A stretch of DNA of 38,479 nucleotides from NCBI GenBank assembly GCA_963205375.1, contig CAUJJV010000067.1, forward strand, positions 1-38,479, written 5' to 3'. This stretch comes from Pseudomonadota bacterium. Its GTDB lineage: Bacteria > Pseudomonadota > Gammaproteobacteria > Burkholderiales > Burkholderiaceae_C. Below are positions 13 to 34,080 of the stretch, piece after piece. Under the pieces are notes generated by a model. It was given only the letters and a program-made list of their open reading frames with translations, did not search any database and was not told the origin of the DNA. The position numbers were made by a program, and so were the translations under genes. The number at the start of each line of letters is the position of its first letter. Positions within the stretch are counted from its first letter, which is position 1.

Positions 13-3000
13 GTGGTGCGCAAGCTGCATGTCGCGCTGCCCTTCCTGAGCAGCCTGGCGTCCCAGCGCGAAGTGAATGTCACGCCCCGCCTGGCATTTG
101 AACTCAATGGCAGCGCCTTTGATACCGCGGCCGAGGGCACCCCGTTTGCCCAGACCCGCAAAGGCGAGGCCACGGTACGCATCTCCCAATTTGATGTGAC
201 GCCGTACCTGCCTTACCTGCCCAAGGGCTTGCCGCTGCAGCTCAAGGCGGCGGTGCTGGACACCGATTTGCGCGTGGCCTTCGAGCAGCAGCCCCGCCTG
301 GCCGTGTCCGTCAAAGGTTCGGCCACTGTGTCCTCACTGGACCTGGCGGAGGCTGGTGGTCAGGACCTGCTGGGAGTGGAGTCCATCCATGCGGTGCTGG
401 CGGATGTGCGTCCGCTGGAGCAGGTGGTCCGGCTGGAGTCGCTGGAGATCGTGGCGCCGGAGCTGCAGGTGCGGCGTAACCGTGCGGGCCATATCAATCT
501 GGATTTGGCAACCTCCGTCAAATCGAAAAATGCTCCTGAAATCATAGCTGCTAGCGCAAGCAATACGGGGGCTACAGGCCAAAATGATGCTAAACCTGCG
601 ACTGCAACGCCAGCGCAGACCACCCAGCCGGCATGGCAGGTGGAACTGGCGCGCTTTGCCTTGCACAAGGGCGCGGTGCACTGGACCGACGATACCCTGG
701 CACCCAGTGCAAAGCGGGATGTGAAGGACATCGAACTGCAGGTCCAGGCGATCCAGTGGCCCTCTACCGACAAGCCGGCCACGCTGGAAGGCAGTCTGGC
801 AATACCGTCGGGCAACAAAACCGCCCAGTTCGCTTTCAAGGGCACAGGCACCGATGGCGCTGGCAGCGTCGAGGCCACATTGAAGGACCTGCCGCTGGGC
901 GTGACTGCGCCCTATGTGGCGCAATTCCTGGTACCGCAGGTGGCTGGCGTGCTGGAGGCCGAGGCCCAGGCGCTGTGGAAGGACGGGCAGGTGCAGCTCA
1001 AACTGCCACGGCTGGCCTTGCGCGACTTTGCGCTGGTGGCCGACAAGGCACTGGCTGCCGAATCGGCGGCGCCATTGCCCAGATTCAAATGGCTGGAAAT
1101 CACCGATGCACAGGCAGACCTGACCGCCCGCACCGCCAGCGTGGGCAAGGTGGCGCTGCGTGCACCTTCGGCCACGGTGGATCGGGATGCGCAGGGGCGC
1201 TGGATGTTCCAGCGCTGGTTGAAGACGGCTCCTGCAGCTGACACACCAGCTCCTGCCTCTGCCGCGAATACCGCGGCGACTACGCCGCCATGGAAAGTGG
1301 CGGTGGCCGAGTTGGCCCTGGACGACGGCGCGGTAGCACTGGACGACCGCCTGCCTGCGCGGCCAGTGATGGCAACGATCTCCGCACTGAAGGTGCTGGC
1401 CAAGACGCTGACGCTCGACGGCAAGAAGCCGGCCCCTCTGACCGTCTTGGCCCGCATCAAGGCAGGCCAGACTGAGCCGGGGATGCTCAAGTACAGCGGC
1501 ACTGTGATGTGGGACCCGGTCACGGTGCAGGGTACGCTGGACGCACTGGATATCCCCGCCCATGCCTTTGCCCCCTATGTGGCAGACCGGCTCAATATCG
1601 AGCTGCTGCGCGCGGATGCCAGTGTCAAGGGTACGGTGCGCTATGCCGCGACTGCGGGCGGGCCGCAAGTGCAATTGCGCATGGATGCCGCGCTGGAGGA
1701 TTTTCGCTCGAACAGTGTGCAGACCACGGGTGGCCAGGGGCTGCCGGTGGGGGAAGAGTTGCTGAGCTGGAAGTCGCTCAACGTGCCGGGCATTGAGTTC
1801 GACATGGTGCCGGGCACCGCCCTGCGCGTGCAGGTGCGCGAGGCTGCGCTGACCGATTTCTATGCCCGTCTGCTGATCAGCCCGCAAGGCAGGCTCAACC
1901 TGCAGGACCTGGTCAAACCCGCACCAGCAGATGTCGGCAAAGTGGCTGCTGCCCCTGCCACAGCTGCTTCAGCACCTGTGGCGTCCGCACCTGCGACCCC
2001 GGCTGGTCCCGCGCCCATCATCACCGTGGGGCCGGTCAGTCTGGTGCACGGCAAGGTACTTTTTTCGGACCGTTTCATCCAGCCCAACTATTCTGCCGAC
2101 CTGAGCGAACTCACCGGCCGGCTCAGCAAGTTCTCCTCGCAAAGTGTGGACGGTGTGGTGCAACTGGCCGACCTGGAGTTGCGCGGGCGCGCCGAAGGCA
2201 GTGCGGCGCTGGAGATCACCGGCAAGATCAACCCTCTGGCCAGGCCACTCGCGCTGGACGTGCGCGGCAAGGTGCGCGACCTGGAGTTGCCGCCCCTGTC
2301 GCCCTATGCGGTCAAGTACGCGGGCTACGGCATCGAGCGCGGCAAGCTCAGTGTGGACGTCAGCTACCTGATCAAACCCGATGGGCAACTGACCGCCACC
2401 AACAGCCTGGTTCTGAACCAGCTGACTTTTGGCGACAAGGTGGATGGTGCGCCCAACAGCCTGCCGGTCAAGCTGGCGGTGTCGCTGCTGGCCGACCGCA
2501 ATGGCGTGATCGACCTGAACCTGCCCATCAGCGGTTCGCTGAACGACCCGCAGTTCAGTATCGGGCCGGTGATCTGGAAGGTCATCACCAACCTGATTGC
2601 CAAGGCCCTGACGTCACCGTTCAGCCTGTTGGCCAGTGCCTTGGGCGGCAGCGACGAACTGAGCAATGTCAGCTTTGCTCCTGGCTCCAGTGTGCTGACA
2701 GCGGATGCCAGACAGGGCCTGGACAAAGTGGCCCAAGCCTTGGTGGACCGGCCCGGCCTGAAGGTCACGGTGCTGGGAACCGCAAGTCTGGAGGCTGAAC
2801 GGGAGGCCCTCAAGCGGGAGCGACTGCGCGGCCTGTTGCTGGCCGAGAAGCGCCGCCAGGCCGCCGTGGCCGGGCAGGACACGGTGGCGGTGACCGCCGT
2901 GACCGACGCCGAGTACCCCGCACTGCTCAAGGAGGTGTACCGGCGCGCTGACATTACCAAGCCACGCAACTTGGTGGGTTTTGCCAAAACCTTGCCGGCA

Positions 3001-3207
3001 CCCGAGATGGAGTCCTTGCTGCTGGCCAGCATCGGAGTCAATGAGGACGCCATGCGGGAGCTGGCCTTGAGCCGGGGTGTTGCGGTGCGTGACTATCTGG
3101 CGGCCAAGCAGCTTGAATCGGAGCGGTTGTTTCTGGGGGCTGCAAAAACAGTTCCGCCCCAGACCGACTGGCGGCCCAGGGCGGAACTCAGTCTGACCAG
3201 CAGGTAG
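13..3207 (+). CDS. DUF748/AsmA-like domain protein with C-terminal OmpA-like segment; probably 5'-truncated by the window edge
   Basis: Long ORF of 1064 aa open from the window edge. Repeated modules of the type 'W-V-LA-L--GAV---D' separated by Ala/Pro linkers. C-terminal 'SSVLTADARQGLDKVAQALVDRPGLKVTVLGTAS'. Confidence 0.85.
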   Translation: MVRKLHVALPFLSSLASQREVNVTPRLAFELNGSAFDTAAEGTPFAQTRKGEATVRISQFDVTPYLPYLPKGLPLQLKAAVLDTDLRVAFEQQPRLAVSVKGSATVSSLDLAEAGGQDLLGVESIHAVLADVRPLEQVVRLESLEIVAPELQVRRNRAGHINLDLATSVKSKNAPEIIAASASNTGATGQNDAKPATATPAQTTQPAWQVELARFALHKGAVHWTDDTLAPSAKRDVKDIELQVQAIQWPSTDKPATLEGSLAIPSGNKTAQFAFKGTGTDGAGSVEATLKDLPLGVTAPYVAQFLVPQVAGVLEAEAQALWKDGQVQLKLPRLALRDFALVADKALAAESAAPLPRFKWLEITDAQADLTARTASVGKVALRAPSATVDRDAQGRWMFQRWLKTAPAADTPAPASAANTAATTPPWKVAVAELALDDGAVALDDRLPARPVMATISALKVLAKTLTLDGKKPAPLTVLARIKAGQTEPGMLKYSGTVMWDPVTVQGTLDALDIPAHAFAPYVADRLNIELLRADASVKGTVRYAATAGGPQVQLRMDAALEDFRSNSVQTTGGQGLPVGEELLSWKSLNVPGIEFDMVPGTALRVQVREAALTDFYARLLISPQGRLNLQDLVKPAPADVGKVAAAPATAASAPVASAPATPAGPAPIITVGPVSLVHGKVLFSDRFIQPNYSADLSELTGRLSKFSSQSVDGVVQLADLELRGRAEGSAALEITGKINPLARPLALDVRGKVRDLELPPLSPYAVKYAGYGIERGKLSVDVSYLIKPDGQLTATNSLVLNQLTFGDKVDGAPNSLPVKLAVSLLADRNGVIDLNLPISGSLNDPQFSIGPVIWKVITNLIAKALTSPFSLLASALGGSDELSNVSFAPGSSVLTADARQGLDKVAQALVDRPGLKVTVLGTASLEAEREALKRERLRGLLLAEKRRQAAVAGQDTVAVTAVTDAEYPALLKEVYRRADITKPRNLVGFAKTLPAPEMESLLLASIGVNEDAMRELALSRGVAVRDYLAAKQLESERLFLGAAKTVPPQTDWRPRAELSLTSR
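526..590 (+). repeat. Dispersed ~58-bp repeat, copy 1 (in-frame inside the DUF748 gene)
   Basis: TGCTCCTGAAATCATAGCTG CTAGCGCAAGCAATACGGGGGCT ACAGGCCAAAATGAT; aligns without gaps to copies 2-4. Confidence 0.7.
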
Positions 3208-3209
3208 CG

Positions 3210-3665
3210 TTACTTGGGGATCACGACGCTGTCGATGACGTGAATCACGCCGTTGTCAGCGACGATGTCGGTCTTCACCACGTTGGCGTTGTCCACCTTG
3301 ACGCCGCCCATGGTAGTCACTGTCAGTTCAGAGCCCTGCACGGTCTTGACTTTGCCTGCCTTCACATCAGCGGCCATCACCTTGCCGGCTACCACGTGGT
3401 AGGTCAGCACCGCAGTGAGCTTGGCCTTGTCTTTCAGCAACGCGTCCAGATCGGCCTTGGGTACCTTGGCAAAGGCTTCATCGGTGGGAGCGAACACGGT
3501 GAAGGGGCCTTTGCCTTTGAGGGTGTCAACCAGTCCGGCTGCCGTCAGCGCGGTGGCCAGCGTCTTGAAGCTGCCCGCAGCAACGGCGGTGTCGACGATG
3601 TCTTTGGCTTGTGCGGAAAACACAGCGCCGAGAGCCAGAACGGAAGCGATGAGGGTCTTTTTCAT
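3210..3665 (-). CDS. Fasciclin (FAS1) domain secreted protein
   Basis: Start placed at [20 protein letters not shown] (signal peptide). '[17 protein letters not shown]' and '[15 protein letters not shown]' are FAS1 motifs. Confidence 0.93.
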
Positions 3666-3728
3666 GGAGATCTCCAAAAATGGGTTGTTTACCGGGTCCG
3701 CCAAAAAACTGGCGTAGGCGTAATGTAA

Positions 3729-3780
3729 TACCAATAAGTAACCTTATGAACTAAATGGTAATTATGGATACTAAACGGTA
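3729..3780. promoter_or_regulatory. Cluster of three related 11-12 bp half-sites (candidate operator) in the fasciclin/paiB divergent intergenic region
   Basis: ACTAAATGGTA at 3750-3760 and ACTAAACGGTA at 3770-3780, exactly 20 bp apart, plus inverted TACCAATAAGTA at 3729-3740. Confidence 0.4.
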
Positions 3781-3857
3781 TTTTTTTGAGCATGCCTCCG
3801 AATTACGATCGGTGCTCCCCCGCTTTGCTCTCCCGTATTCCCACCCAGCGAGACACC

Positions 3858-4496
3858 ATGTACACGCCCACGCACTTTGAAGAAACCCGCACCGAGGTCT
3901 TGCACCAGCTGGTGCGAACGCATCCACTGGCCACCCTGGTCACGCTATCACCGGACGGACTGGTGGCCAACTATGTTCCGCTGCTGTACCGGCCGTCTCC
4001 TGCCGGGCTTGGAGCGCTCGTAGGGCATGTAGCCCGCGCCAACCTTGTGTGGAACGCTACAAATTTTGAAGTGCCTGTGCTGGCCTTATTCCAGGGGCCA
4101 CAGCTGTATGTCAGCCCTTCGCTGTACGCCACCAAGCAGGAGCATGGCAAGGTGGTGCCGACCTGGAACTATGTGGTGGTGCAGGCCCGGGGCCTGCTCA
4201 CGGTGCATGACGATGCCCAGTGGATTCGCCAGCAGGTGACCGAGCTGACCCAGCAGCAGGAAGCAGTACGCCCCCAACCCTGGGCCGTGGACGACGCGCC
4301 GCGGGCCTACACCGATACTATGGTCAAGGCGATCGTGGGTATCGAGATCACGCTCATGCAGTTGAGCGGCAAATGGAAAGTCAGCCAGAACCAGCCCGCT
4401 ATCAATCAGGCCAGCATCATCGCGGGCTTGCGGGCAGAGGGGACCCCGGATGCGCAGACCATGGCGGCACTGGTGGCGAGCGCCAGCAAGCGCTGA
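3858..4496 (+). CDS. paiB: FMN-binding negative transcriptional regulator, PaiB family
   Basis: MYTPTHFEETR...HPLATLVTLSPDGLVANYVPLLY...HGKVVPTWNYVVVQARG...LSGKWKVSQNQP matches the PaiB pattern. Confidence 0.88.
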   Translation: MYTPTHFEETRTEVLHQLVRTHPLATLVTLSPDGLVANYVPLLYRPSPAGLGALVGHVARANLVWNATNFEVPVLALFQGPQLYVSPSLYATKQEHGKVVPTWNYVVVQARGLLTVHDDAQWIRQQVTELTQQQEAVRPQPWAVDDAPRAYTDTMVKAIVGIEITLMQLSGKWKVSQNQPAINQASIIAGLRAEGTPDAQTMAALVASASKR

Positions 4497-4586
4497 CAGG
4501 GCGGGGTAGGTGAAATAGCGAGGTAAAGGAGGAGGCCGCAGGCCGGGGGACACGAGCGATTTCGCCTACCCCGCCCTGTCAGCGCT
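4489..4586. repeat. Long inverted repeat (28-bp arms, 42-nt loop) between convergent paiB and pirin genes
   Basis: Left AGCGCTGACAGGGCGGGGTAGGTGAAAT (4489-4516). Right ATTTCGCCTACCCCGCCCTGTCAGCGCT (4559-4586). One non-Watson-Crick position, which is a G-U wobble on the + transcript. Confidence 0.93.
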
Positions 4587-5595
4587 CTTCGAGTTTGCCG
4601 TCGGCATGCAGGGCAAAACGCCCCTTGTCGCGCGGATGCACCGGGTCGCTCACCCCCCAGGGCCAGCCACCAAATTCGGTACGCCGGTAGTCGGCAAACG
4701 CCTGGTGAATTTCGGCCTGGGTGTTCATGACAAAGGGGCCGTACTGCGCCACCGGTTCACCAATCGGCCGGCCCTGTAGCACTAGCAGCTCGGCCTCGGT
4801 GTTGCCGTTGTGGAGTACACAGTCATGGTTACCGCGCACCTCCACCACGGAGGAGGGCGTAACGGCTTCACCCGCCACCGTCAGAGAAGAGCCACTGAAA
4901 AAATACAGCTGGCGCCGGGTGGCGGCGTGCTGCGCTGCAGGCAGCGTCCACTGCGCGCCTGGTGCCATCTTGATCGTGTAGATGCCCACTTCGGCATCCA
5001 GTTCGCTGGCCCAGGAATCGGGTGGTGGGGGCAGGCACCGGGCGCCTGGCAGGTCGCCAGCAATGACCGTCACTTCGGTGAGCCGGTTGGCAGTGTCCTG
5101 CGCCTGGATGCGGGGAATGTCTTCATGCCAGAACATGGTGAAGTGCGGCTCGGCCATTTTGTTTTTCGCCGGCAGGTTGAGCCAGATCTGGAACAGCTCG
5201 GCATGGTTGGGCGCGTCCGCATGGAGCAAAGGGAACATCTCGCAGTGCACGATGCCCTTGCCGGCGGTCAGCCATTGCACATCACCACTGCCAAAGCGGG
5301 CGGTTGCACCCAGCGAGTCGGAATGGTCGATGCGCCCGTGGCGCACGATGGTGACGGTCTCAAAACCCCGGTGGGGGTGCGAGGGGAAGCCCGGCACGGT
5401 CTGGCCGTGGTACATGCTCCAGCCGTCCTTGCCTGCAAAGTCCTGCCCGAGGTTTCGCCCGGCCAGCAGCGCGGGGTCCGGCCCCAGGCTGGCATTGCCT
5501 TTCGGATAGGCATCGTTGTGGTGAACGCAGAACAGGAAGGGGTCAATGGTTTGCCACGGAAATCCCAGCGGCGCGATGGACAGGACGGTTTTCAT
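4579..5595 (-). CDS. Pirin family protein
   Basis: MKTVLSIAPLGFPWQTIDPFLFCVHHNDAYPKGN...VPGFPSHPHRGFETVTIVRHGRIDHSDSLG...VQWLTAGKGIVHCEMFP is a pirin cupin signature. Confidence 0.93.
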   Translation of the reverse strand: MKTVLSIAPLGFPWQTIDPFLFCVHHNDAYPKGNASLGPDPALLAGRNLGQDFAGKDGWSMYHGQTVPGFPSHPHRGFETVTIVRHGRIDHSDSLGATARFGSGDVQWLTAGKGIVHCEMFPLLHADAPNHAELFQIWLNLPAKNKMAEPHFTMFWHEDIPRIQAQDTANRLTEVTVIAGDLPGARCLPPPPDSWASELDAEVGIYTIKMAPGAQWTLPAAQHAATRRQLYFFSGSSLTVAGEAVTPSSVVEVRGNHDCVLHNGNTEAELLVLQGRPIGEPVAQYGPFVMNTQAEIHQAFADYRRTEFGGWPWGVSDPVHPRDKGRFALHADGKLEER

Positions 5596-5611
5596 GCGGA
5601 CGATTGTCCGC
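5596..5611 (-). promoter_or_regulatory. Perfect hairpin directly abutting the pirin start codon
   Basis: GCGGAC-GATT-GTCCGC immediately 5' (on the - strand) of ATG at 5595. Confidence 0.45.
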
Positions 5612-5674
5612 GGTTCAGGGGTTTTTTGCAGGCCGTGCCTGCATCTGCCCATGCCCAGCCACTAAGATTCACGG

Positions 5675-6841
5675 ATGTTGATTCGATCCCGTCTATTGCG
5701 CCTGCTCTGTGCCCTGGTGCTTGCAGTGCTGGCCATGGCGGCGGGGTGGGTGCTGCGCCCGGCGGCTCCGGTGCCAGCCCGTGCGGTGGTTCACGCCGCC
5801 GCGGCCCCTGTGGCGGTGGATGTCACCCGACTGCACAAGGTGGCGCAGGGGGATTTGCCCATGCCGGCGGGGGCGGCGGCGGCGCATGCCAGCAGCCTGC
5901 TGGTCATGCCCCCGGGCGGGCCGTCTGCCCTGACGGTGTTCTGGTTTTCTGGCGAGCGTGAGAGTGGCCCCGGGGTGCAGATTGCGGCGTCGCAATGGGA
6001 TCGCAGCATGCAGGCCTGGAGTGCACCGCGCATCGTTGCCAACCGGCACGTGCTGGGAGCCCAGCTGGGGCACGGAGTGCGCCGGCTCGGTAATCCGGTG
6101 GCGTGGATGGACGCCGACGGGCGCATCCACCTGTTTGTGGTTGCGACTGGCTGGGGCGGCTGGGCGGCCAGCCGCATCCTGCATTTGCGCCAGAGCAGTC
6201 ACAGCCTGAACCTGGATGCGCTGGAGTTCTCGCCGGTGCGGGTGTTGCCACTGTCGTGGTTGTGGAATACCAGCCATCTGGTGCGCAATACCCCCCTGCC
6301 ACTGGCCGACGGCGGCATGGTGTTGCCAGTGCATTTCGAGCTGGGATGGAAGTACCCCGTGGCACTGCGATTTGACGCGCAGGGCGACTTCCAGGGCATG
6401 GTGCGCATGTCGGCCCGCAAGCATCTGCTTCAGCCCACATTGCTGGCCCAATCGCCTGACCATTGGATTGGCCTGCTGCGCGATGAAAGCGCCAACGGCA
6501 AAGTGGGCGCTGTGGCGACCGATGACGGTGGGCAGCATTGGCGGGACCTGCCAGACCTGGCGCTGGACAATCCGGATGCATCGGTCGGTGGCATGGCACT
6601 TGGGGCCGGCCAGATGGTGCTGGCCCATAACTCCTCACCGGGCTCGCGTGCCCGTCTGGACCTGAGCCACAGCAGCGATGGGGTGCATTGGTCACTGCTG
6701 GCGACCCTGGCCAGCGGAGCGCCGATGGACGAGTTTTCCTACCCGTCCATGGCCTGGGCAGATAACAGCCTGTGGATCAGCTACACGGTGGACCGGCAGC
6801 GCCTGGCCTGGCAGCGCTTTGCACCAGGAGGTTCGCCATGA
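5675..6841 (+). CDS. Sialidase/neuraminidase-like (BNR/Asp-box) protein with N-terminal membrane anchor or signal
   Basis: N-terminal hydrophobic segment; Asp-box-like motifs 'TDDGGQHWRDL' and 'SSDGVHWSLL'; 'FWFSGERESGPGVQIAASQWD'. Confidence 0.78.
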   Translation: MLIRSRLLRLLCALVLAVLAMAAGWVLRPAAPVPARAVVHAAAAPVAVDVTRLHKVAQGDLPMPAGAAAAHASSLLVMPPGGPSALTVFWFSGERESGPGVQIAASQWDRSMQAWSAPRIVANRHVLGAQLGHGVRRLGNPVAWMDADGRIHLFVVATGWGGWAASRILHLRQSSHSLNLDALEFSPVRVLPLSWLWNTSHLVRNTPLPLADGGMVLPVHFELGWKYPVALRFDAQGDFQGMVRMSARKHLLQPTLLAQSPDHWIGLLRDESANGKVGAVATDDGGQHWRDLPDLALDNPDASVGGMALGAGQMVLAHNSSPGSRARLDLSHSSDGVHWSLLATLASGAPMDEFSYPSMAWADNSLWISYTVDRQRLAWQRFAPGGSP

Positions 6842-7503
6842 ATGCCGCGGCTTCCCTCTTCAGCGCGGATAACCCGGGTTTGCCCGCCTTGGGGTTGGTG
6901 CAACTCTGGCTGCATGTCGGCTGGGGTACCTTGCTGGCCTGGTTGGGCGTTCGTATGGGCACGCGGCTGGGGCTGCAGCCACGTGCCGCCTGGGTGTTGG
7001 CGTCTGCCTTGATGGTGTGGGCCTGGTTGCCTGGGCCGTACGCACCCGTGCACTGGCTGGGGCTGGCTTTCCAGGGGCCCAGTGTGATGGCGGTGCTGCT
7101 GTGCGCTGTGGACCTGGTCTGGCGCCGGACTGGTTCTGGGCGTTTCCGGGAAGGGCCAAGCTTCTGGAGTGGTGCATGGCTGGCGGCGGGCGTGTTGCTG
7201 GGCTGGGCACTGTTGCTGGATACCCTGGCGTTACTCCCCGTGTCGCTGTACGCGTGGGGGTTCAACGCTGCAGTGCCGGCGTTGCTGGTGTTGCTGGCCC
7301 TGCTGCCCTGGGTGTTGCAGGGCGGGTCGGCGCGCCAGCATTCCATGTCGGTGCTGGTGGTCATTGTTCTCGGTGTGTATGTGGCTCTGCACCTTCCCAC
7401 GGGCCATGTCTGGGATGCCCTGCTGGACCCCTGGCTCTGGCTGTATCTGAACGTGCGCGCTGTGCGAGCAGGCTTCGCCGGGCGGCGTGGCGTGTTGCCC
7501 TGA
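6838..7503 (+). CDS. Multi-pass membrane protein of unknown function, translationally overlapped with the upstream sialidase-like gene
   Basis: ATGA overlap with the upstream stop; strongly hydrophobic 221-aa translation. Confidence 0.7.
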   Translation: MNAAASLFSADNPGLPALGLVQLWLHVGWGTLLAWLGVRMGTRLGLQPRAAWVLASALMVWAWLPGPYAPVHWLGLAFQGPSVMAVLLCAVDLVWRRTGSGRFREGPSFWSGAWLAAGVLLGWALLLDTLALLPVSLYAWGFNAAVPALLVLLALLPWVLQGGSARQHSMSVLVVIVLGVYVALHLPTGHVWDALLDPWLWLYLNVRAVRAGFAGRRGVLP

Positions 7504-7519
7504 CGCGAAGCGGGACGGG

Positions 7520-8542: not shown

Positions 8543-8571
8543 GTCCGGTAGTTCCTGCGTCTGCGCTTAAG

Positions 8572-10350
8572 TTAAGGTTTCTGTGCCCCGACCACCAGCC
8601 ACTCCCGCCGGAACAGCCACTGCTGGGGCTGCCAGAGGTTGTCCAGAGTGATTTCGCCACCCTTGTGCCGGCTCTTGACGTGCCACCGCTGGCCAATGAC
8701 CCGGCAGGCTGGTACGCAGGTCGGGGCTGTATCCGCCCCATTCTCCTGCAACCAGACAACCGCATCAAATTCACGCAACAGATATTGCAGTCGCTCGCCA
8801 GGCGGCAGCTCAGGATGCAGTGCACCGGTGTTGCGGCCTTCTGCGTCGTAGGGCACCAGCCGGCTGTCGGGAAACACGAAGCGGAAGCGCTCGAACTGGC
8901 CGGTGAATCCATTGGGCACTGCAATGCGTACGCCCCGCATCGCACTTTGCACTTGCGGGCTGTATTGCAAGCGCGCATCTTCCAGTGGTGCCACCATCAG
9001 GCCGAAGGTGGCGTACACCGAGAGGCAGGTTACCAGAGCACCTGTGCGAGCCCATGATTTATAGAAAAAAGTGACTGCAGCCCCCGTCAATCCTGCGCAG
9101 ACAGCTATCAAAGTAATAGCATTCGAGGAGCGTGAGGCAATTTCCATGTCACCCATCACCCAGGCAATGCGGGCCAGCATCACCAGCGCAGGCACCGTGA
9201 TGGCCGCTGTGACCCAAAACCAGACACGGGGAATGCGGTCCCAAAGCAAGGCCATGACAATCGCCAGCGCCGGCATGGCCGGGATCACGTAGCGGGCCGA
9301 GCGCTGGCTGGGGATGGTGAAGATGACCAGCCACACGACCAGCCAGACCAGCAGGATGCGCATGGCCGGTGTCATCTGCACATAGGTCTGGCTTTTGAAA
9401 GCGCGTGGCAGCCCGAGCAGCAGGAACCCCAGTACCGCAAAGAACAGCAGTCCGCCATTTTCCGGGTAGGCCAGCAACTGGGTCCACATGGGGTAGGCAC
9501 CGAACAGCGCGGCATGCCAGTAGCCCTGCCCCCCCGACATCTTGCCGGCGTTCTCAGCCACCACGAACTCCTGCCAGACGGAGGCAGGGTCCGGGTCGAG
9601 CACAAACCACAGCGCAAAAATGCCCAGGCCCATCAACGTGCTCCAGGTCACGCCCAGCGTGGTGCGGATCACCACGGGCCAGCGCAGGGGCATGCTGTTC
9701 ACCAGAATGGCGCACCACAATGCCGCCGCTGCCGGCGCAACCAGCGCAAAGGATTTGTAGGCCGCACCCAGGCCCATGGCCATGCCGAACAGCGTGTAGG
9801 CCACGAAGCCAAGCTGCGGCGCAGCCGGTGCCTGCTGCACTCCTGGAGGTGTGTTGCGCAACGGTTGCCAGAGCATCCAGAGCATCGGCAGTGCCAGCCA
9901 GAAGGTTTCTGGTGCCGAGGTCAGGTACACCCGGCCGTAGCGGAAAGTGGAGAAAAACAGCAGGTACAGCACAGCGGCGACACAGGCGGTGCGCCATTGC
10001 CCGCTGATGCGGTGGGCAAAGAACGCCAGCAGGCCGGTGGTGACAAAGGTGTAAGCGATGCTGGGCAGGCGCAACGCCACCAGGCTCCAGTTGTGCCCCC
10101 AATTGCCTGCAGCAATTGCCTGCCAGAACAGCAGCGGTGGCTTGGTGTTGCGGGTATCCACGATCTCGGACTGCAACGGCAGCCAGTGGCCCGACTCCGC
10201 CGTCATGCGGGCGATGTGGATGTAGACCATCTCATCGCCGTTGGTGGGCGCGTAGAAGCTGCCCAGGCCCAGCACATAGAGCAATGCAGCCGCACTCACC
10301 AGCACCAGCCAGAGCCAGGGCACCGCGATGGTAGAGCGTGGGGGCATCAT
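8572..10350 (-). CDS. Glycosyltransferase family 39 (ArnT/PMT-like) membrane protein
   Basis: 'YAPTNGDEMVYIHIARMTAESGHWLPLQ...NTKPPLLFWQAIAAGNWGHNWSLVALRLPS' is a PMT_2 signature; many TM segments. Confidence 0.9.
   Translation of the reverse strand: MMPPRSTIAVPWLWLVLVSAAALLYVLGLGSFYAPTNGDEMVYIHIARMTAESGHWLPLQSEIVDTRNTKPPLLFWQAIAAGNWGHNWSLVALRLPSIAYTFVTTGLLAFFAHRISGQWRTACVAAVLYLLFFSTFRYGRVYLTSAPETFWLALPMLWMLWQPLRNTPPGVQQAPAAPQLGFVAYTLFGMAMGLGAAYKSFALVAPAAAALWCAILVNSMPLRWPVVIRTTLGVTWSTLMGLGIFALWFVLDPDPASVWQEFVVAENAGKMSGGQGYWHAALFGAYPMWTQLLAYPENGGLLFFAVLGFLLLGLPRAFKSQTYVQMTPAMRILLVWLVVWLVIFTIPSQRSARYVIPAMPALAIVMALLWDRIPRVWFWVTAAITVPALVMLARIAWVMGDMEIASRSSNAITLIAVCAGLTGAAVTFFYKSWARTGALVTCLSVYATFGLMVAPLEDARLQYSPQVQSAMRGVRIAVPNGFTGQFERFRFVFPDSRLVPYDAEGRNTGALHPELPPGERLQYLLREFDAVVWLQENGADTAPTCVPACRVIGQRWHVKSRHKGGEITLDNLWQPQQWLFRREWLVVGAQKP
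9064..9124 (-). repeat. Dispersed ~58-bp repeat, copy 2 (in-frame inside the GT39 gene)
   Basis: Minus strand: TGCTATTACTTTGATAGCTG TCTGCGCAGGATTGACGGGGGCT GCAGTCACTTTTTTC. Confidence 0.7.
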
Positions 10351-22176: not shown

Positions 22177-22800
22177 TTGGGCGTGAGGACATTTTTGAAC
22201 ACATGGCTTCTGCACAAGGCTGCCAAACCGGCAGCCTTTTTACTGGGGCTGCTCCCTGCACTGTGGCTGGTTTATGGCGCGGCGTTTGATCAGTTAGGGG
22301 CCAATCCGGCAGAGGCGCTGGTGCGCTCAACCGGCGACTGGACCTTGCGAATGCTGTGTGCTGTTCTGGCGGTGACACCTTTGCGTGTCAGCGCGGGCTT
22401 GCCAGGGTTGGCCCGCTTTCGGCGCATGGTGGGGCTGTTCGTGTACTTCTATGCCACGCTGCACCTGCTGGCCTACAGCTGGTTTGACATGGGGCTGGAT
22501 GCCGGTGACATTGCCCGTGACATTGCAAAGCGTCTGTTCATTCTGGTGGGCTTTACCGCCGTGCTGCTGCTGACGCCGCTGGCATTAACTTCATCGAACT
22601 GGATGATTCGATGGCTGGGGGCGCGGCGTTGGCAGGCGTTGCACCGAAGCGTATATGTGGTGGCTGCGCTGGCCGTGCTGCATTTTTTCTGGATGCGCGC
22701 CGGCAAGAACAACTTCACCGAGGTGGCGGTGTATGCCGCTGTGCTGGCGACGCTCTTGGGATGGCGCGCACAGCGGCATTTTAATAAAAAACGCCCCTAG
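22177..22800 (+). CDS. msrQ: Protein-methionine-sulfoxide reductase haem-binding subunit
   Basis: Directly follows msrP; 'RRMVGLFVYFYATLHLLAYSWFDMGLD', 'WQALHRSVYVVAALAVLHFFWM'. Start codon uncertain (TTG 22177 or GTG 22183). Confidence 0.92.
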   Translation: MGVRTFLNTWLLHKAAKPAAFLLGLLPALWLVYGAAFDQLGANPAEALVRSTGDWTLRMLCAVLAVTPLRVSAGLPGLARFRRMVGLFVYFYATLHLLAYSWFDMGLDAGDIARDIAKRLFILVGFTAVLLLTPLALTSSNWMIRWLGARRWQALHRSVYVVAALAVLHFFWMRAGKNNFTEVAVYAAVLATLLGWRAQRHFNKKRP

Positions 22801-22842
22801 CCCTCGTGGAATATGCGTAAGCAGCTATTAAAAGAGTAGCAA
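22781..22842 (-). repeat. Dispersed ~58-bp repeat, copy 3 (between convergent msrQ and lysA)
   Basis: Minus strand: TGCTACTCTTTTAATAGCTG CTTACGCATATTCCACGAGGGCT AGGGGCGTTTTTTAT. Confidence 0.75.
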
Positions 22843-24141
22843 TCAGAGCAGCTTCTCGCCCCGCATCTGGTCTGCCATGGTGTCGCGGACGCGAATCAGG
22901 TGGTGGTTCTGGCCATCCACCAGAATCTCGGCGGCCTTGGGGCGGGAGTTGTAGTTGCTCGACATGCTCATGCAATAGGCACCCGCAGACAAGACCGCGA
23001 GCCGGTCACCGGCCTGCACTGCCAGTGGCCTGTCGCGTCCGATCCAGTCGCCACTCTCGCAGACGGGGCCCACCACATCACAGACCAGTCCGTTTGTGCT
23101 GCCTTTGACGTGCAGTGCTTCATCCAACGGAACGATGGTGTGAAAGGCCTGGTACATGGCCGGGCGCGGAAGATCGTTCATGGCGGCATCCACAATGCAG
23201 AAATTCTTTTGCTCGCCAGGTTTCATGAACAGTACTTCGGTAACGCAAACCCCGGCATTGCCTACCAGTGAGCGACCCGGTTCGATCATCAGCTTGCGTT
23301 GGCCAAAACCACGTGCGTCGAGCTTGGTGAGCAGCTTGGCCCACAGCGCGTCCGCGGCAGGAGGTGTATCGCCCTGGTAGTCGATGCCCAGACCGCCACC
23401 AAAATCGATGTGGTGGATGGGGATGCCTGCGGCCTCGATGCTTTCAACCAGGTCCAGCATGCGGTCCATGGCGTCCAGGTAGGGCGTTTCTTCCGTGATC
23501 TGGGAGCCAATATGGCAATCAATACCGACGATCTGCAGTCCCGGCAGAGACGCCGCGTGCTGGTAGGTTGCCAGCGTGCGCTCGTGTGCGATACCAAACT
23601 TGTTGCCCTTGAGCCCGGTCGAGATGTAAGGGTGCGTCTTGGGGTCCACATTGGGATTCACGCGAATGCTGATAGGCGCACATTTGCCCATGGATACAGC
23701 CACAGCGTTGAGCACATCTATCTCTGCCTCGCTCTCCACATTGAAGCATCCGATGCCGGCTTCCAGCGCCTGGCGCATCTCGGTGCGGGTTTTTCCGACA
23801 CCGGAAAAAATAACCTTGGAGGCATCGGCACCAGCAGTGATGACGCGGGCCAGCTCACCGGCAGAGACAATGTCAAAGCCGCATCCGGCCTGCGCGAACA
23901 CCTGCAGTACACCCAAGCTTGAGTTCGCCTTCATGGCGTAGCAAATCTGGGCGTTCCTACCCGAAAAACCGCGCTGGTAGGCCGCCAATGCGGCCAACAT
24001 GGATGCCTTGGAATACACGAACAACGGCGTGCCAAATTCAGTGGCGAGTCCATCAAGGGAGCAGCCCTCGACCTGCAACTGTCCGTCAGCGTAGTGGATG
24101 TGGGGTTGTCCTGGAATGGAAGGGGAGGTCATTGGATTCAC
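22843..24141 (-). CDS. lysA: Diaminopimelate decarboxylase
   Basis: 'FGTPLFVYSKASMLAALAAYQRGF', 'ICYAMKANSSLGVLQVFAQAGCGFDIVSAGEL', 'VCESGDWIGRDRPL', 'GAYCMSMSSNYNSRPKAAEILV'. Confidence 0.98.
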   Translation of the reverse strand: MNPMTSPSIPGQPHIHYADGQLQVEGCSLDGLATEFGTPLFVYSKASMLAALAAYQRGFSGRNAQICYAMKANSSLGVLQVFAQAGCGFDIVSAGELARVITAGADASKVIFSGVGKTRTEMRQALEAGIGCFNVESEAEIDVLNAVAVSMGKCAPISIRVNPNVDPKTHPYISTGLKGNKFGIAHERTLATYQHAASLPGLQIVGIDCHIGSQITEETPYLDAMDRMLDLVESIEAAGIPIHHIDFGGGLGIDYQGDTPPAADALWAKLLTKLDARGFGQRKLMIEPGRSLVGNAGVCVTEVLFMKPGEQKNFCIVDAAMNDLPRPAMYQAFHTIVPLDEALHVKGSTNGLVCDVVGPVCESGDWIGRDRPLAVQAGDRLAVLSAGAYCMSMSSNYNSRPKAAEILVDGQNHHLIRVRDTMADQMRGEKLL

Positions 24142-27135: not shown

Positions 27136-27177
27136 CAGACGGTTTCAGAACGTCTGCTTTTGGCAACGCTTGCGTTG
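27136..27177. promoter_or_regulatory. Two adjacent inverted repeats in the mrcA-pilM divergent intergenic region
   Basis: CAGACG (27136-27141) / CGTCTG (27151-27156), then CAACGC-TT-GCGTTG (27164-27177). Confidence 0.4.
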
Positions 27178-27197
27178 TTCCGAATTGGAAAAAACCT

Positions 27198-27226
27198 TTG
27201 CGGGACAAGGAGCTTACTGATAGCAT
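27198..27226 (+). promoter_or_regulatory. Weak candidate sigma70-like promoter for pilMNOPQ
   Basis: TTGCGG - 17 bp - TAGCAT upstream of pilM; similarity only. Confidence 0.25.
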
Positions 27227-27282
27227 TCAAGTGAATTCTTAAGTATGACTGTCCATTTGGCGGTCAATTTCAGGGGACAGTT

Positions 27283-28362
27283 TTGATCTCATTGGGGTCG
27301 CTCTTCAGTCGCCAGCCGGCACCATTGCTCGGTCTGGATATCAGTTCTTCCAGTGTTAAGCTGGTCGAGTTGGGCCGTGACAAGGCCGGTAATCTGGTGC
27401 TTGAACGGTGTGCCATCGAGCCCCTGGAGCGAGGCTGGATCAGTGATGGCAATATTGAAAAATTTGACGAAGTGGCTGATGCCTTGCGCAGGCTCGTCAA
27501 GAAAAGCGGTGCCAAGACCAAGAATGTAGCGATGGCGTTGCCGCCGTCAGCAGTTATCACCAAGAAGATCATCCTGCCCGGTGGCATGACGGATGAAGAA
27601 TTGGAATCACAGGTTGAGACAGAAGCCAATCAGTACATCCCGTTCCCGCTGGATGAGGTGAGTTTGGACTTCTGCGTGATCGGTCCAAGTGCTACTTCAG
27701 CAGGCGATGTTGAAGTACTGATTGCGGCCTCCCGGCGGGAAAAAGTGCAGGATATTCAGGGTCTCGCTGAAGCGGCGGGCCTGACACCCGTTGTGGTGGA
27801 TGTTGAATCGTATGCTTCCCGACTGGCTGCTGGGCGATTGATAGAAAACCTGCCCAACAACGGATCAGGCTTGATCGTTGCACTTTTCGAGATTGGCGCA
27901 CTGACGACCAGCATGCAGGTGTTGCGCGACGATGAGGTTCTTTATGATCGGGATCAGGCTTTTGGCGGAGCCCAGTTGACGCAGTTGATCATCCGGCAGT
28001 ATGGATTCTCACAGGAAGAAGCCGAGAGCACGAAGCGCAGCGGTGAATTGCCCGAGGACTATGAATCCTCTGTGCTGAAGCCGTTTCTGGAAACCATGGT
28101 CCAAGAGTTGGGGCGTGCGTTGCAGTTTTTCTTCACCAGTACACCACACAACAAGGTGGATTACATCATGTTGGCGGGTGGCTCAGCGGCACTTCCGGGT
28201 CTGACTGCAGCCGTGACACAGCACACCTCTTTCCCGTGCAGCCTGCTTAATCCGTTTGACGGCATGGAGATTGGAGACGGGGTGCGTCTGAAGCGTATGA
28301 CCCGTGAGGCGCCCTCCTATTTGACATCGTGCGGCTTGGCGCTGCGGAGGTTCGCGCAGTGA
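27283..28362 (+). CDS. pilM: Type IV pilus assembly protein PilM (TTG start)
   Basis: 'PLLGLDISSSSVKLVELGRDKAGNLVLERCAIEPLERGWISDGNI' plus operon context. Confidence 0.95.
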   Translation: MISLGSLFSRQPAPLLGLDISSSSVKLVELGRDKAGNLVLERCAIEPLERGWISDGNIEKFDEVADALRRLVKKSGAKTKNVAMALPPSAVITKKIILPGGMTDEELESQVETEANQYIPFPLDEVSLDFCVIGPSATSAGDVEVLIAASRREKVQDIQGLAEAAGLTPVVVDVESYASRLAAGRLIENLPNNGSGLIVALFEIGALTTSMQVLRDDEVLYDRDQAFGGAQLTQLIIRQYGFSQEEAESTKRSGELPEDYESSVLKPFLETMVQELGRALQFFFTSTPHNKVDYIMLAGGSAALPGLTAAVTQHTSFPCSLLNPFDGMEIGDGVRLKRMTREAPSYLTSCGLALRRFAQ

Positions 28363-29018
28363 TCTTGATTAATCTGCTTCCGCACCGTGAGGCTGCTCGC
28401 AAGCGGCGCCGTGACGTCTTCAATATTTCACTCGGGGCTTCGGCGCTGTTGGGTGGATTGATTGCTGGCGCAGTCTTTTTGTGGTTTCAGGCCGCCATTT
28501 CTGTTCAGCAGAACACCAATGGAATTCTTGAAACAGAGATCAAGAAACTAGAAAGCCAAATCAAGGATATTGCTGGTTTGGAGTCCGAAATTGCAGCGTT
28601 GCGCGCAAGGCAGCAGGCCGTTGAAGACCTCCAGTCTGATCGCAATTTGCCAGTGCACTTGTTGACTGAACTGGTAAATCAATTGCCGGATGGTGTTTAT
28701 ATTTCAAAAATGGTTCAGGCGGACAAATTGGTGACACTGAACGGGACCGCCCAGTCCAATGAGCGTGTCTCTGAGTTGTTGCGCAATTTGTCAAACAATA
28801 CGCCATGGTTCACGAAGCCCGAGTTGGTGGAAATCGTGGCCGGGTCAGTTGCGCTGAATCGCGAACAAAAGCGCGTGGCCAATTTTGTGATTCGTGTTCA
28901 GCTGGTTCGCGCGAGCGACGCTGAGAAGGCAGCTGCCGCTGCAGCTGTCGCATCAGATGCCATTCCCGCAGCGTCGCCTGCGTCTGCACCGGCAAGCAGT
29001 GTCGGTGTCAAGAAATAG
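28359..29018 (+). CDS. pilN: Type IV pilus assembly protein PilN (GTG start overlapping pilM stop)
   Basis: 'VILINLLPHREAARKRRRDVFNISL' typical PilN N-terminus; operon context. Confidence 0.93.
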   Translation: MILINLLPHREAARKRRRDVFNISLGASALLGGLIAGAVFLWFQAAISVQQNTNGILETEIKKLESQIKDIAGLESEIAALRARQQAVEDLQSDRNLPVHLLTELVNQLPDGVYISKMVQADKLVTLNGTAQSNERVSELLRNLSNNTPWFTKPELVEIVAGSVALNREQKRVANFVIRVQLVRASDAEKAAAAAAVASDAIPAASPASAPASSVGVKK

Positions 29019-29029
29019 CTGGGTGCACC

Positions 29030-29692
29030 ATGGTGGAAAAAACTTCCCGCTCGTTTGATTTTTCGGCTTTACAGGCTAAGGTGCAGGGCCAATTTCAGAA
29101 CCTGGATCCCAAAGATCCGTCTGTTTGGCCTTCCCTGCCGCGTTACGCCCTGTTTGTGGTCACCGCCATTGTTGTGGTCACCGTTTTGTGGTTCTTGTGG
29201 CTAACCAGTTCACTAGAGGTGCTAGAACAGGAGCAGGAGAAAGAGGTAAAGCTTCGGGCTGATTACAAGATCAAGCTAGCTAAAGCAGTGAATCTGGATG
29301 TTTTGAAAAAGCAGCGCGAGCAGGTTCAGCAGTACGTAACGCAGCTGGAGAAGCAGTTGCCCGGAAAATCCGAGATGGATGCCCTGCTCTCTGACATCAA
29401 TCAGGCTGGTCTTGGCAGAAGTCTGCAGTTCGATTTGTTCCGCCCAGGGCAGGTCGCCGTCAAGGAGTATTACGCAGAGCTCCCTATTACTATCAAAGTG
29501 AGTGGTAGATACCACGATATCGGAGCTTTTGCGTCCGACATCGCCAATCTCTCCCGCATCGTGACGTTAAACAATTTGTCCATCAGTCCCAAACCTGATG
29601 GAACGCTTTCCATGGACGCTACTGCCAAAACTTTCCGGTATCTCGACCCTGACGAAGTGGCTGCACAGCGCAAAGCAGGGGGCAAGAAATGA
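29030..29692 (+). CDS. pilO: Type IV pilus inner-membrane protein PilO
   Basis: Single TM, coiled coil, 'LEKQLPGKSEMDALLSDINQAGLGRSLQFDLFRP'. Confidence 0.94.
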   Translation: MVEKTSRSFDFSALQAKVQGQFQNLDPKDPSVWPSLPRYALFVVTAIVVVTVLWFLWLTSSLEVLEQEQEKEVKLRADYKIKLAKAVNLDVLKKQREQVQQYVTQLEKQLPGKSEMDALLSDINQAGLGRSLQFDLFRPGQVAVKEYYAELPITIKVSGRYHDIGAFASDIANLSRIVTLNNLSISPKPDGTLSMDATAKTFRYLDPDEVAAQRKAGGKK

Positions 29693-30231
29693 GGGCCGTG
29701 TATGGTTTGCTGGCGATGGCTGGACTTATTGGCCTTGCGGGATGCGGTGCATCGCGGGAGGATGATATTCGGCAGTGGATGGTAGAGGAGCGAAATCAAA
29801 CGCGGCCCAAGGTGCCCCCCATTTCAGCGCCCAAGCAGTTCAAGCCGGAGGCTTATACCAATGCCTCAGCGATTGAGCCATTCAGCAACCAGAAATTGAC
29901 GCAGGCGCTCAAGCGGGACTCAGCGCAACAAGCCTCCAATGGTGCATTGGTGGCTCCTGAGCTGGCTCGTCGCAAGGAGCCTATGGAAGCGTTTCCGCTC
30001 GATACCATGAGTCTGGTCGGTAGCATCATCAAGGCGGGCCAACCGGTGGCTCTGGTCAAAGTGGACAGCTTGTTGTACCAGGTGAAGCTAGGAAACTATC
30101 TGGGTCAGAATTACGGAAAAGTCACAAAAATCACTGAAACCGAAGTGACATTGCGGGAAATCGTGCAGGACGCTGTCGGTGAGTGGATTGAACGTGTTGC
30201 AACGCTCCAGTTGCAGGAGAAGTCTAAATGA
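29689..30231 (+). CDS. pilP: Type IV pilus lipoprotein PilP
   Basis: Lipobox 'LAGCGA'; 'PVALVKVDSLLYQVKLGNYLGQNYGKVTKITETEVTLREIVQD'. Confidence 0.95.
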   Translation: MRAVYGLLAMAGLIGLAGCGASREDDIRQWMVEERNQTRPKVPPISAPKQFKPEAYTNASAIEPFSNQKLTQALKRDSAQQASNGALVAPELARRKEPMEAFPLDTMSLVGSIIKAGQPVALVKVDSLLYQVKLGNYLGQNYGKVTKITETEVTLREIVQDAVGEWIERVATLQLQEKSK

Positions 30232-32336
30232 GTAAACAGAACAAACAAACAGGATTGAACATGTGGCATCGGCTGGTATTTTCTGTTGCCATGGTGTTGG
30301 TGGCTGTGTCGGGGCGTGCTGAGACTTCGATTGAAGCCGTGACGGGTTCTGTTCAGGGCGGCACGGAGATCGTTCGCATCGATCTTTCAGAGGCGCTCAT
30401 CGCTCCTCCAACGGGATTTGCCATTCAATCCCCTGCACGCATTGCGCTTGACTTTCCGGGGGTCGCCAATGGTATGGGGCGCTCTACCGTCGATGTGAAT
30501 CAGGGTAATCTAAAATCTGTCAGCGTGGTGCAGGCTGGAGAGCGTACGCGTGTTGTGCTCAACCTGAAGCAGGCAGCAGCGTACAGGACAGAAATACAAG
30601 GCAAGTCATTGCTCGTCATGCTGGAGCCATCTGTGGCTGGTGCCAGCAGCCCCGTGGCAAGCCCAACTTTTGCTGAAAACAAGAGTCGCGATTCCGCTCC
30701 CATCAAGGACATGGATTTCCGCCGTGCTGCCGATGGTGCTGGCCGCATCGTAGTGACGCTTCCCAATAATCAGGTCGGTGTGGATATCCGTCAGCAGGGT
30801 CAAAATCTGGTTGTGGAGTTCATGAAGTCGACATTGCCCGAAGGCCTTCGCCGGCGCCTGGATGTGGGAGATTTTGGTACGCCAGTGAAGACTGTTACCT
30901 CGTTTCAGTCCGGCGACAGAGTTCGTATGGTGATTGAGCCCAAAGGGCAGTGGGAGCATTCGGCTTACCAGAGCGATGAGCAGTTTGTTGTGGAGGTCAA
31001 GGAAATCAAGGTTGATCCCAAAAAACTGACGCAGGGCGTTGGATACAACGGTCAAAAGCTGTCATTGAACTTCCAGAATATCGAGGTCCGTTCACTCTTG
31101 CAGGTGATTGCAGACTTTACCAACTTCAACATCGTTACGTCGGATTCAGTTTCTGGTTCGGTAACCTTGCGCTTGCAGGATGTTCCTTGGGATCAGGCGC
31201 TGGACATCATTTTGCAAGCCAAAGGCTTGGGCATGCGCAAGAGTGGGAATGTGCTGTGGGTTGCTCCCAAGGACGAAATTGCGGCCAAGGAAAAGCTGGA
31301 TCTGGAATCGGCTGCTGCCGTGCAAAGTCTGGAGCCATTGCGGACCCAATCATTCCAGATCAACTATGCCAAGGCTGCAGAAATCGCAGCCCAGTTGACT
31401 GCAGGTGGAAGCGGTGCTGCCAATAGCGCACGCATTCTGAGTGCCCGTGGAAGTGTGATTGCAGAGCCACGCACCAACCAGTTGTTTGTGACCGATATCC
31501 CAAGCAAGCTGGAACAAGTGCAACAGCTGCTTGCTAAACTTGACATTGCGGTGCGTCAGGTGCTGATTGAAGCGAGGATTGTGGAGGCATCGGACAGCTT
31601 TGGAAAATCCTTGGGTGTGCGCTTGGGCGGTGGGAACTCCACCAACGCGGCGACATTGGGAACGACAGAGGGCGGGCCGTTAAATGTCGGATTTGGCTCT
31701 ACCTACACCACTGGGGTGTCTGGCACCAATTCGGGTAACTTTGTCAACTTGCCTTCCACCGGTGCACTGGGCTACGCAAATGCAGGAACCTTCGCGATTT
31801 CCTTGTTCGGGGAGTCTGCAAACAAGTTTTTGAATTTGGAAATTTCTGCGCTTGAGGCCGATGGAAAAGGCAAGGTGGTTTCAAGCCCCCGTGTGGTTAC
31901 GGCAGACCAGATCAAGGCGCTGATTGAGCAGGGTACAGAATTGCCATATCAAGTAGCCTCGTCCAGTGGAGCTACGTCTATTGCTTTCCGCAAGGCCAAC
32001 TTGAAGCTGGAAGTAACGCCGCAGATCACACCAGAAGGCAACATCATTCTGGATTTGGATGTCACCAAGGACACGGTTGGGCAGTCCACTCCCGCGGGCT
32101 TTGCAATTGACACCAAACACATCAAGACTCAAGTGCTGGTCGAGAATGGCGGTACTGTTGTGATCGGCGGGATTTTTACGGAAGACCAAACAACAGACGA
32201 AGCCAAGGTTCCGTTCTTTGGTGATCTGCCAGGCTTGGGCGTGCTCTTCCGGAATAAGTCCAGCTCCTCAAGAAAGCGTGAAATGCTGGTCTTCATTACC
32301 CCGAAGATGATTGCCGAGAAAGCCATCGGCCGCTGA
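30228..32336 (+). CDS. pilQ: Type IV pilus secretin PilQ
   Basis: AMIN-like N-terminus, STN/secretin '[26 protein letters not shown]'-type region, C-terminal '[19 protein letters not shown]...[16 protein letters not shown]...[11 protein letters not shown]'. Confidence 0.97.
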
Positions 32337-32340
32337 TCCC

Positions 32341-32880
32341 TTGATATTCAGTCTGGTTGGCCTGCCTGGCTCCGGAAAGACAACAGTCGGGCGTCAACTC
32401 GCCCGGCGTCTTCAGCTTCCTTTCGTGGATTCAGACCATGCCATTGAAGCGCGTCTGGGCTGCTCCATTCGCGAGTTCTTTGAGCGCGAAGGCGAAGCCA
32501 AATTCCGGGATGTCGAAGAGGAAGTCATAGACTCGTTGACCACGGGGCCCACCGGTGTGCTTTCCACTGGCGGTGGCGTGGTCATTCGTCCGGCCAATCG
32601 ACAGCATCTGCGTGAACGCGGACAGGTCATTTACCTGAAATCCACTCCAGAGGAGTTGTTTCGGCGCCTGCGCCACGATGTGAATCGTCCATTGCTGCAG
32701 GTGGCTGACCCGCTGTCCCGTTTGCGGGATCTCTACGCCACACGCGATCCTCTGTACCGTGAAATCGCGCATTTCGTCCTCGAAACCGGGCGGCCGTCCG
32801 TTGCGACGCTTGTCAATATGATTCTGATGCAGCTTGAACTTGCGGGTCTGCTGCCGGCGCAGCAAACACCCTCGGTGTGA
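32341..32880 (+). CDS. aroK: Shikimate kinase (TTG start at 32341, or 32311)
   Basis: P-loop '[55 protein letters not shown]'. Confidence 0.94.
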
Positions 32881-32913
32881 ATTGGTAGTGCAAGGTCCCC
32901 TAAACTCTAGGGT

Positions 32914-34029
32914 ATGACTTCAAACAACCACACCAGCGTTTCGATCGATCTGGGCGATAGAAGCTACTCCATTCAAATCGGCACTCAACTGCTTGACGAT
33001 AGTCAGACTTTCTCGCAGCTGCCCAAGGCCAATTCCGCTTATGTTGTCAGTAACACGACAGTAGCACCGTTGTACGCTGACCGACTGGTCCGTGCGTTGG
33101 CTGGCGTGTACAAGAGCGTGCATTTGGTGGCTTTGCCCGATGGCGAAGAGTTCAAGACATGGCAGGTTCTGAATCAGATCTTTGATGCTTTGCTGTCGAA
33201 CGGAGCTGACCGGAAAACAGTGTTGTTTGCGCTGGGCGGCGGCGTGGTGGGGGACATGACGGGATTTGCCGCCGCAAGTTTTATGCGCGGGATTCCCTTT
33301 GTGCAGGTGCCGACCACATTGCTGTCGCAGGTCGACTCGTCGGTGGGTGGCAAGACCGGCATCAACCATCCTTTGGGCAAGAACATGGTCGGTGCGTTTT
33401 ACCAGCCTCTCTTGGTGGTGTGCGATCTGGATACGCTCAAAACGCTTCCGGATCGTGAGCTGAGTGCAGGTCTGGCAGAGGTCATCAAGTACGGCCCCAT
33501 TGCTGACGGATCATTTCTGGACTGGATTGAGCAGAACCTTCCACTGTTGCTTGCGCGTGACGGTACTGCGCTGGCCCACGCGGTCAAGCGAAGCTGCGAG
33601 ATCAAGGCCTGGGTGGTCGGACAGGATGAGCGCGAGGCCGGGTTGCGTGCGATTCTGAATTTTGGGCACACGTTCGGTCATGCCATCGAAGCCGGGCTCG
33701 GGTATGGCGAGTGGCTGCATGGCGAAGCGGTTGGATGCGGCATGGTTATGGCAGCCCACCTGTCACAACGTTTGGGATTGGTGGATGCCGCTTATGTACA
33801 GCGACTGACCAGCCTGATTCATAACGCGCGTCTGCCAGTCGTCGGTCCCATTCTGGACGCCAATGACAACGCCGGACGCTACCTGGAACTGATGCGAATG
33901 GACAAGAAGTCAGAAGCAGGAGAGATCCGTTTCGTCGTTCTTGACGGTATTGCCAAAGCAAAGATGCTTGGCGCACCCGATTCCATGGTGCGTGAAGTGG
34001 TGGACTCGTGCTGCAATCCTTTGCTATGA
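32914..34029 (+). CDS. aroB: 3-dehydroquinate synthase
   Basis: '[60 protein letters not shown]', '[12 protein letters not shown]'. Confidence 0.97.
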
Positions 34030-34080
34030 ATAGTGTAGCTATACGCGCAGCATTGGCGAGGGGTAGGGTGTGATTTGTCT
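34021..34080 (+). repeat. Dispersed ~58-bp repeat, copy 4 (aroB-dgt junction)
   Basis: TGCTATGAATAGTGTAGCTA TACGCGCAGCATTGGCGAGGGGT AGGGTGTGATTTGTC; same spacing as copies 1-3. Confidence 0.6.

Follow-up and report, generated by a model that had tools for sequence, protein, structure and literature searches.

The repeated occurrence of one short sequence in a 38,479-bp contig of a Pseudomonadota bacterium assigned to Burkholderiaceae_C (GenBank assembly GCA_963205375.1, contig CAUJJV010000067.1; this whole stretch is referred to below as the window) raises the question of what this sequence is and how it has come to persist in the genome. Our analysis suggests, tentatively and with somewhat less than even confidence, that it represents an ancient short interspersed repeat which is now immobile and is maintained as a double-stranded DNA site recognized in either orientation by a predicted factor.

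An initial sequence-only reading had placed four copies in the window and aligned them without gaps. The model R1, which was built from the sequences of 32 copies of the source genome and run with filters off, recovered exactly these four, with E values of 2.6e-17 to 4.8e-11 compared to 0.33 for the match ranked next. A 28-nt pattern likewise matched four times in the window compared to 0.09 matches expected in shuffles. The copies, with their R1 scores, and the genes on either side of copy 4 are as follows:

530 to 597, + strand: copy 1 (53.1 bits), wholly within a DUF748/AsmA-like gene (13 to 3207, + strand)
9055 to 9122, - strand: copy 2 (55.6 bits), wholly within a PMT-family gene (8572 to 10350, - strand)
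22775 to 22842, - strand: copy 3 (57.6 bits), overlapping a gene 3' end
32914 to 34029, + strand: aroB (3-dehydroquinate synthase; Pfam DHQ_synthase), the gene whose end hosts copy 4
34021 to 34087, + strand: copy 4 (37.5 bits), at the aroB-dgt junction, overlapping a gene 3' end
34075 to 35271, + strand: dgt-like HD phosphohydrolase gene (Pfam HD and HD_assoc), downstream of copy 4

Instead of the ~58 bp originally proposed, the element measures 66-68 bp per copy, extending from ~16 bp 5' to ~53 bp 3' of TAGCTG. In 147 copies from other species the AT-rich composition of the columns gave way to background composition around positions -16 and +53 of this motif, again giving ~67 bp. While the repeat family itself proved to be real, its approximate consensus had to be replaced by an improved one for the source genome, nTTGCTATnAAATTnATAGCTGCTTGCGCAnnnTCnACGGGGGCTAGAGnCCnATTTnnCTnnAAA. 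The element consists, in this order, of a GCTAT-like block, an A/T tract, the RTAGCTGCTNGCGC core, a variable middle, the GNGCTAGAGGCC block, a further A/T tract and a second A-rich tract located about one helical turn beyond the preceding one, and contains ~60 bits of information over 67 bp (324 ungapped copies). In the same copies TpA steps in the A/T columns reached only 0.43 and 0.38 of expectation, indicating that the A/T runs have the character of A-tracts on one or the other strand. The middle varies genus by genus, and the inner part, which is preceded by RTAG, is palindromic, perfectly so over 9 bp in certain copies from other genera (CTAGCGCTTn7AAGCGCTAG) and imperfectly in the source genome (CTTGCGCAn6ACGGGGGCTAG). 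Clear terminal repeats were not found in the consensus.

The source genome, which is 75% complete, amounts to 2.76 Mb distributed over 297 contigs, of which the window is number 67. In this genome a strict 30-nt pattern yielded 33 matches compared to none for a reversed-pattern control, and a model search recovered at least 150 copies, all with E<1e-8. Based on the miss rate of this search (7 of 56 comparable matches on fully read contigs were absent from the model list) and the density in the window (4 per 38 kb), the complete source genome would probably hold ~290 copies. A more general pattern had matches in 45 of the 401 genomes of the GTDB family, representing 20 of 141 genera, and none for the control. 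The named matches include Acidovorax, Rhodoferax, Polaromonas, Simplicispira, Giesbergeria, Variovorax, Ottowia, Diaphorobacter and Curvibacter, the remainder being a few records called only Burkholderiales, Burkholderiaceae or beta proteobacterium. The repeat is confined to the Comamonadaceae, a family of bacteria from soil and water, where it occurs in about 20 genera, in agreement with the initial suggestion that genomes of this family carry many such sequences, and it is essentially chromosomal. Only 10 element stretches were present in 2.9 million viral contigs and four records were returned by each of two plasmid searches, nearly all of them from Comamonadaceae, and carriage by phages or plasmids was rejected because of this near absence. 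The density amounted to 24 copies in 247 kb, and overall to ~1 per 10 kb. Two contigs of the source genome (L090 1494-3002 and L092 17223-18731) share the same copy pair with near-identical flanks, which may reflect a duplication or a mixture of strains in the assembly.

The copy number is close to all-or-none, with 94 to at least 150 copies in bearers, 0-1 in ten members of the genus and none in outgroups. In a tree of AroB and Dgt the repeat-free lineages G034 and G004, G032, and G017 are each nested among bearers, while deep-branching members bear the repeat, suggesting that it was present ancestrally and has been lost at least three times. One member of the genus, G348, has an intermediate count of 16 copies and is possibly a lineage caught losing the repeat.

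Copy 4, which provides the stop codon of aroB (34027-34029), has counterparts in 13 other genera: of their 20 element-bearing genomes that were compared, 17 have a match of equal orientation at this junction, located at or just 3' of the aroB stop, while no match was found there in nine genomes without the repeat. Within the genus, five members contain the orthologous copy; in G034, G004, G017 and G032 as well as in the outgroups the site is empty, and in these four genomes it is 52-70 bp shorter than in the element-bearing G015. The aroB-dgt copy is an old insertion that has been retained at the same site across genera. Copy 3 begins directly after the stop codon of a decarboxylase gene (22843-24141, - strand) and also covers the last ~26 bases of a ferric-reductase-like gene (22177-22800, + strand). 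G026 and G007 have this copy, whereas G001, G034, G004 and G017 lack it (-48 to -61 bp). Empty orthologous sites, which had been proposed as a check, thus exist at both loci, all of them too diverged for target-site duplications to be read. Over 247 kb compared between G007 and G001, nearly all flank-matched copies were common to both genomes, mostly with zero length difference, and recent transposition was rejected since no clean insertion polymorphism was seen. The empty sites together with this near absence of polymorphism suggest that the insertions were real, but occurred long ago, and most of the copies examined are old and have been inherited vertically.

The sequence of the element appears to be constrained in part. 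When 18 orthologous copy pairs from a single genome pair, G007 and G001, were compared, with genes called by a simple program and copies identified by profile in both genomes, the identity of the 5' half (columns 5-31) was 0.904 in noncoding copies and 0.941 at third codon positions, whereas that of the 3' half was only 0.654 and 0.65, respectively. The corresponding values for the flanks were 0.723 at third positions of flanking genes and 0.867 in flanking noncoding sequence. Fisher tests on the conservation of the 5' half (p 2e-7 to 6e-10) point to a DNA-level constraint on this half, with the 3' half serving as internal control. Conservation among matches to the general pattern was left out as evidence, since this pattern itself fixes many columns.

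With respect to genomic context, 63 copies were classified in 327 kb of the source genome, on contigs picked for several copies each: 33 were intergenic, 20 lay over gene ends and 10 were intragenic, with a median distance of 9 bp 3' of the upstream stop codon. About a fifth of copies are intragenic. In three data sets only 7 of 194 copies occupied divergent gaps compared to 24% expected by length (p 6e-15), while convergent gaps contained 27% of copies compared to 11% expected (p 2e-9); the copies avoid promoter gaps. Strand relative to tandem genes was nearly neutral (78:57, p 0.08), and copies occurred mostly as singletons, with only two adjacent pairs under 150 bp. A same-strand run in another genome prompted a test of orientation relative to the replichores. 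None of the four genomes tested was skewed (p 0.17 to 0.75), and a replichore-oriented signal of the KOPS or Chi type was rejected.

Of 44 same-strand intragenic copies, 39 lie in the sole TAG-free frame and encode peptides like APEFIAARAYSTGATGQN, and antisense copies mostly yield peptides like NRPLAPVEYAQAAIKNIA. The host proteins are unrelated (EarP, SpoU methylase, TruB, HemD, PurL, NuoF-like, DnaE-like polymerase and ABC-F-like), and several copies, partly by reading of the sequences, coincide with linkers, with N termini resembling signal peptides or with hydrophobic helices. Copy 1, whose host gene was identified by Pfam, reads in the stop-free (GCT) frame and gives the peptide NAPEIIAASASNTGATGQNDA; a homologous in-frame peptide is found in many members of the genus, while others have the same linker without it. 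Copy 2 lies on the same strand as the PMT-family gene, also in the GCT frame, over a hydrophobic segment. However, relatives that lack the element sequence, as well as other families, have a PMT-family protein of equal length, which argues against a net insertion at copy 2. In G007, five copies occur within ~14 kb in an ImuB-like gene (L366 9272-10684) and a DnaE2-like gene (L366-L367), the ImuB-like label resting on context, with no Pfam match. At another locus of this genome (L365 17851-19533) two adjoining genes have element-encoded signal-peptide-like N termini, one with a lipobox-like end.

According to the reading that we favor, the ~67-bp repeat would have spread through insertions in the ancestor of the family or earlier, as seen at aroB-dgt and presumed elsewhere, and would subsequently have been inherited vertically and kept up as a double-stranded DNA recognition site, its RTAGCTGCTNGCGC core and flanking A-tracts being contacted by a putative chromosomal DNA-binding factor whatever the strand or transcription. 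Sites would persist where they are least harmful, after stop codons and between convergent genes, or, within genes, in the sole stop-free frame of segments that encode linkers, signal peptides or membrane helices, and the placement at gene ends would reflect tolerance rather than function. Once the factor is lost from a lineage, all copies would decay and be deleted, resulting in the near all-or-none distribution. Recognizability at the same site across genera and the kept synonymous sites are unexpected for neutral fossils and argue for maintenance of the sequence. Recognition of double-stranded DNA is suggested by the nearly neutral strand use, the presence of intragenic copies in either orientation, the A-tract rule and the lack of covariation, and a trans-acting factor by the set-wise loss. 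Several points weigh against this reading: the factor is only a predicted one, copy 2 with its unchanged gene length is not explained by simple insertion, the 3' half, although conserved within the source genome, has been poorly preserved between G007 and G001, the constraint comes from one genome pair with profile-found copies, and host-level selection on hundreds of 60-bit sites would be demanding.

The main conservative alternative, possible but doubtful in our view, is that the repeat is a relic of a selfish element resembling repetitive extragenic palindromic (REP) elements with their RAYT, or Rickettsia palindromic elements (RPE), in which a Y1 transposase once moved a palindromic [A/G]TAG-tagged repeat whose copies are now functionless fossils. 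The RTAG ahead of the inner palindrome, the insertion-sized empty sites and the in-frame intragenic copies would all fit such an origin, and a gene of this type is present in the window:

37447 to 38148, + strand: RAYT-like Y1 transposase gene, the only PF01797 match in the source genome, just upstream of gltB

The encoded protein, which scores below the NCBIfam cut-off, is a candidate past mobilizer of the repeat, and in G015 a second RAYT gene (L120 1854-2802) is flanked on both sides by element copies of the same orientation. However, functionless copies would not be expected to preserve synonymous sites or a single locus in different genera, recent insertions were not seen between G007 and G001, and the copies are singletons rather than clusters. 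Moreover, RAYT persists in repeat-free genomes, so that it was rejected as the sole explanation; in line with the initial view that no mobilizing enzyme was known, none tracks the repeat. The gltB-linked RAYT-like gene is found as a single copy in nearly all members of the genus with or without the repeat and is possibly domesticated, and only some genomes have an element copy in its downstream gap. In the window, positions 38180-38200, after the RAYT stop, read TTTTTTGCTATCATTTTTGATG, resembling the 5' half of the element, and some relatives have matching copies in the same gap (L121, L125, L133 and L135).

The main novel alternative, which we consider unlikely, is that the repeat acts as a driven signal comparable to DNA uptake sequences: preferential uptake or conversion of bearing fragments would let the motif accumulate in the core chromosome and overwrite coding sequence. 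Copy 2 would be better explained by such drive than by insertion, and the conserved core with A/T tracts of either strand, the location in the core chromosome rather than in plasmids or viruses, the genus-specific variants of the middle, the set-wise loss and the clustering in imuB-like and dnaE2-like repair genes of one region are all consistent with it. In contrast, known uptake signals are far shorter than the element with its ~60 bits and occur more densely than its ~1 copy per 10 kb, and the aroB-dgt and copy 3 sites look like insertions. A ~67-bp chromosome-wide signal of this kind, multiplied by drive, overwriting genes without length change, as old as the family and purged set-wise when its machinery was lost, appears rather improbable. 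Far less probable still is an RNA role as transcription terminator or 3'-UTR element via the inner hairpin. The position just 3' of stop codons, the perfect inner palindrome in some genera, and one paired change and two wobbles among aroB-dgt orthologs would be in its favor, yet the copies are nearly strand-neutral, with antisense and intragenic ones among them, the hairpin half is the less well kept one between G007 and G001, and an Rfam search gave no family match reaching the gathering score. Hairpin or RNA structure was rejected because neither the outer GCTAT/ATAGC stem nor the inner stem showed covariation of base pairs exceeding column composition.

Searches of the open literature found no paper describing the full element. 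However, a 2017 survey (PMC5217627) listed GCTTAT(N)5AAGCG from Acidovorax ebreus and ATAGCT(N)22CAAAAG from Polaromonas naphthalenivorans among "potential novel motifs", with 114 and 125 copies that were mostly intergenic, often convergent, rarely divergent and sometimes in genes, and reported the largest number of motif pairs for Rhodoferax ferrireducens. The spacing of both pairs fits the element in register and the convergent bias is similar, but the survey reports only two pentamer/hexamer pairs per genome, and neither the full element nor its family-wide range, orthologous retention, coding frame or constraint. A common and much-sequenced family holds a repeat of hundreds of copies without name or function, although fragments of it were seen in 2017. 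The element explains lineage-specific peptides in many Comamonadaceae proteins, and its same-site retention, intragenic DNA-level constraint and at least three independent losses make a trans-acting partner findable which, if found, would reveal a new chromosome-organizing site or a new driven signal.

Among known systems, REP elements (PMC3733652) share with the element hundreds of copies, a location at gene 3' ends, [A/G]TAG beside a palindrome and a RAYT in the genome. However, they are GTAG/CGTC-tagged palindromes of 20-40 bp, extragenic and often paired or clustered, and accompanied by a cognate RAYT, whereas the 67-bp element has RTAG and an inner palindrome that is imperfect in the source genome, occurs singly and in about a fifth of cases within genes, and is present or absent independently of RAYT. 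RPE, as described in PMC10969869, likewise have in-frame copies with conserved peptides in unrelated proteins, and copy 1 fits an in-frame insertion of this type while copy 2 does not; the element is shorter than RPE, belongs to another family, is mostly intergenic and is constrained over genus-level distances. BRE of Bordetella and other Betaproteobacteria (PMC3110155) are ~90 bp long and frequently arranged in tandem, vary in number and, in Bordetella, have 69% GC. They also occur in Comamonadaceae, with some copies within coding sequences, but identity with BRE was rejected because composition and layout differ, the element being AT-rich at both ends and single. Miniature inverted-repeat transposable elements (MITEs), which have terminal inverted repeats and target-site duplications, are also characterized by recent insertion polymorphism, in contrast to the matched copies of G007 and G001, nearly all of which are common to both. 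The uptake signal sequences of Haemophilus and the DNA uptake sequences of Neisseria combine a core with A/T tracts, a core-genome location, coding copies in preferred frames and lineage variants. The element shares all of these features, but is far longer and sparser, its density falling short of the about one per 1-2 kb of uptake sequences. Since it lacks features that define REPs, MITEs and uptake sequences, we class it as a variant short interspersed repeat, in which the retention at aroB-dgt across genera, the coding frame, the constraint at synonymous sites and the all-or-none copy number with losses are new.

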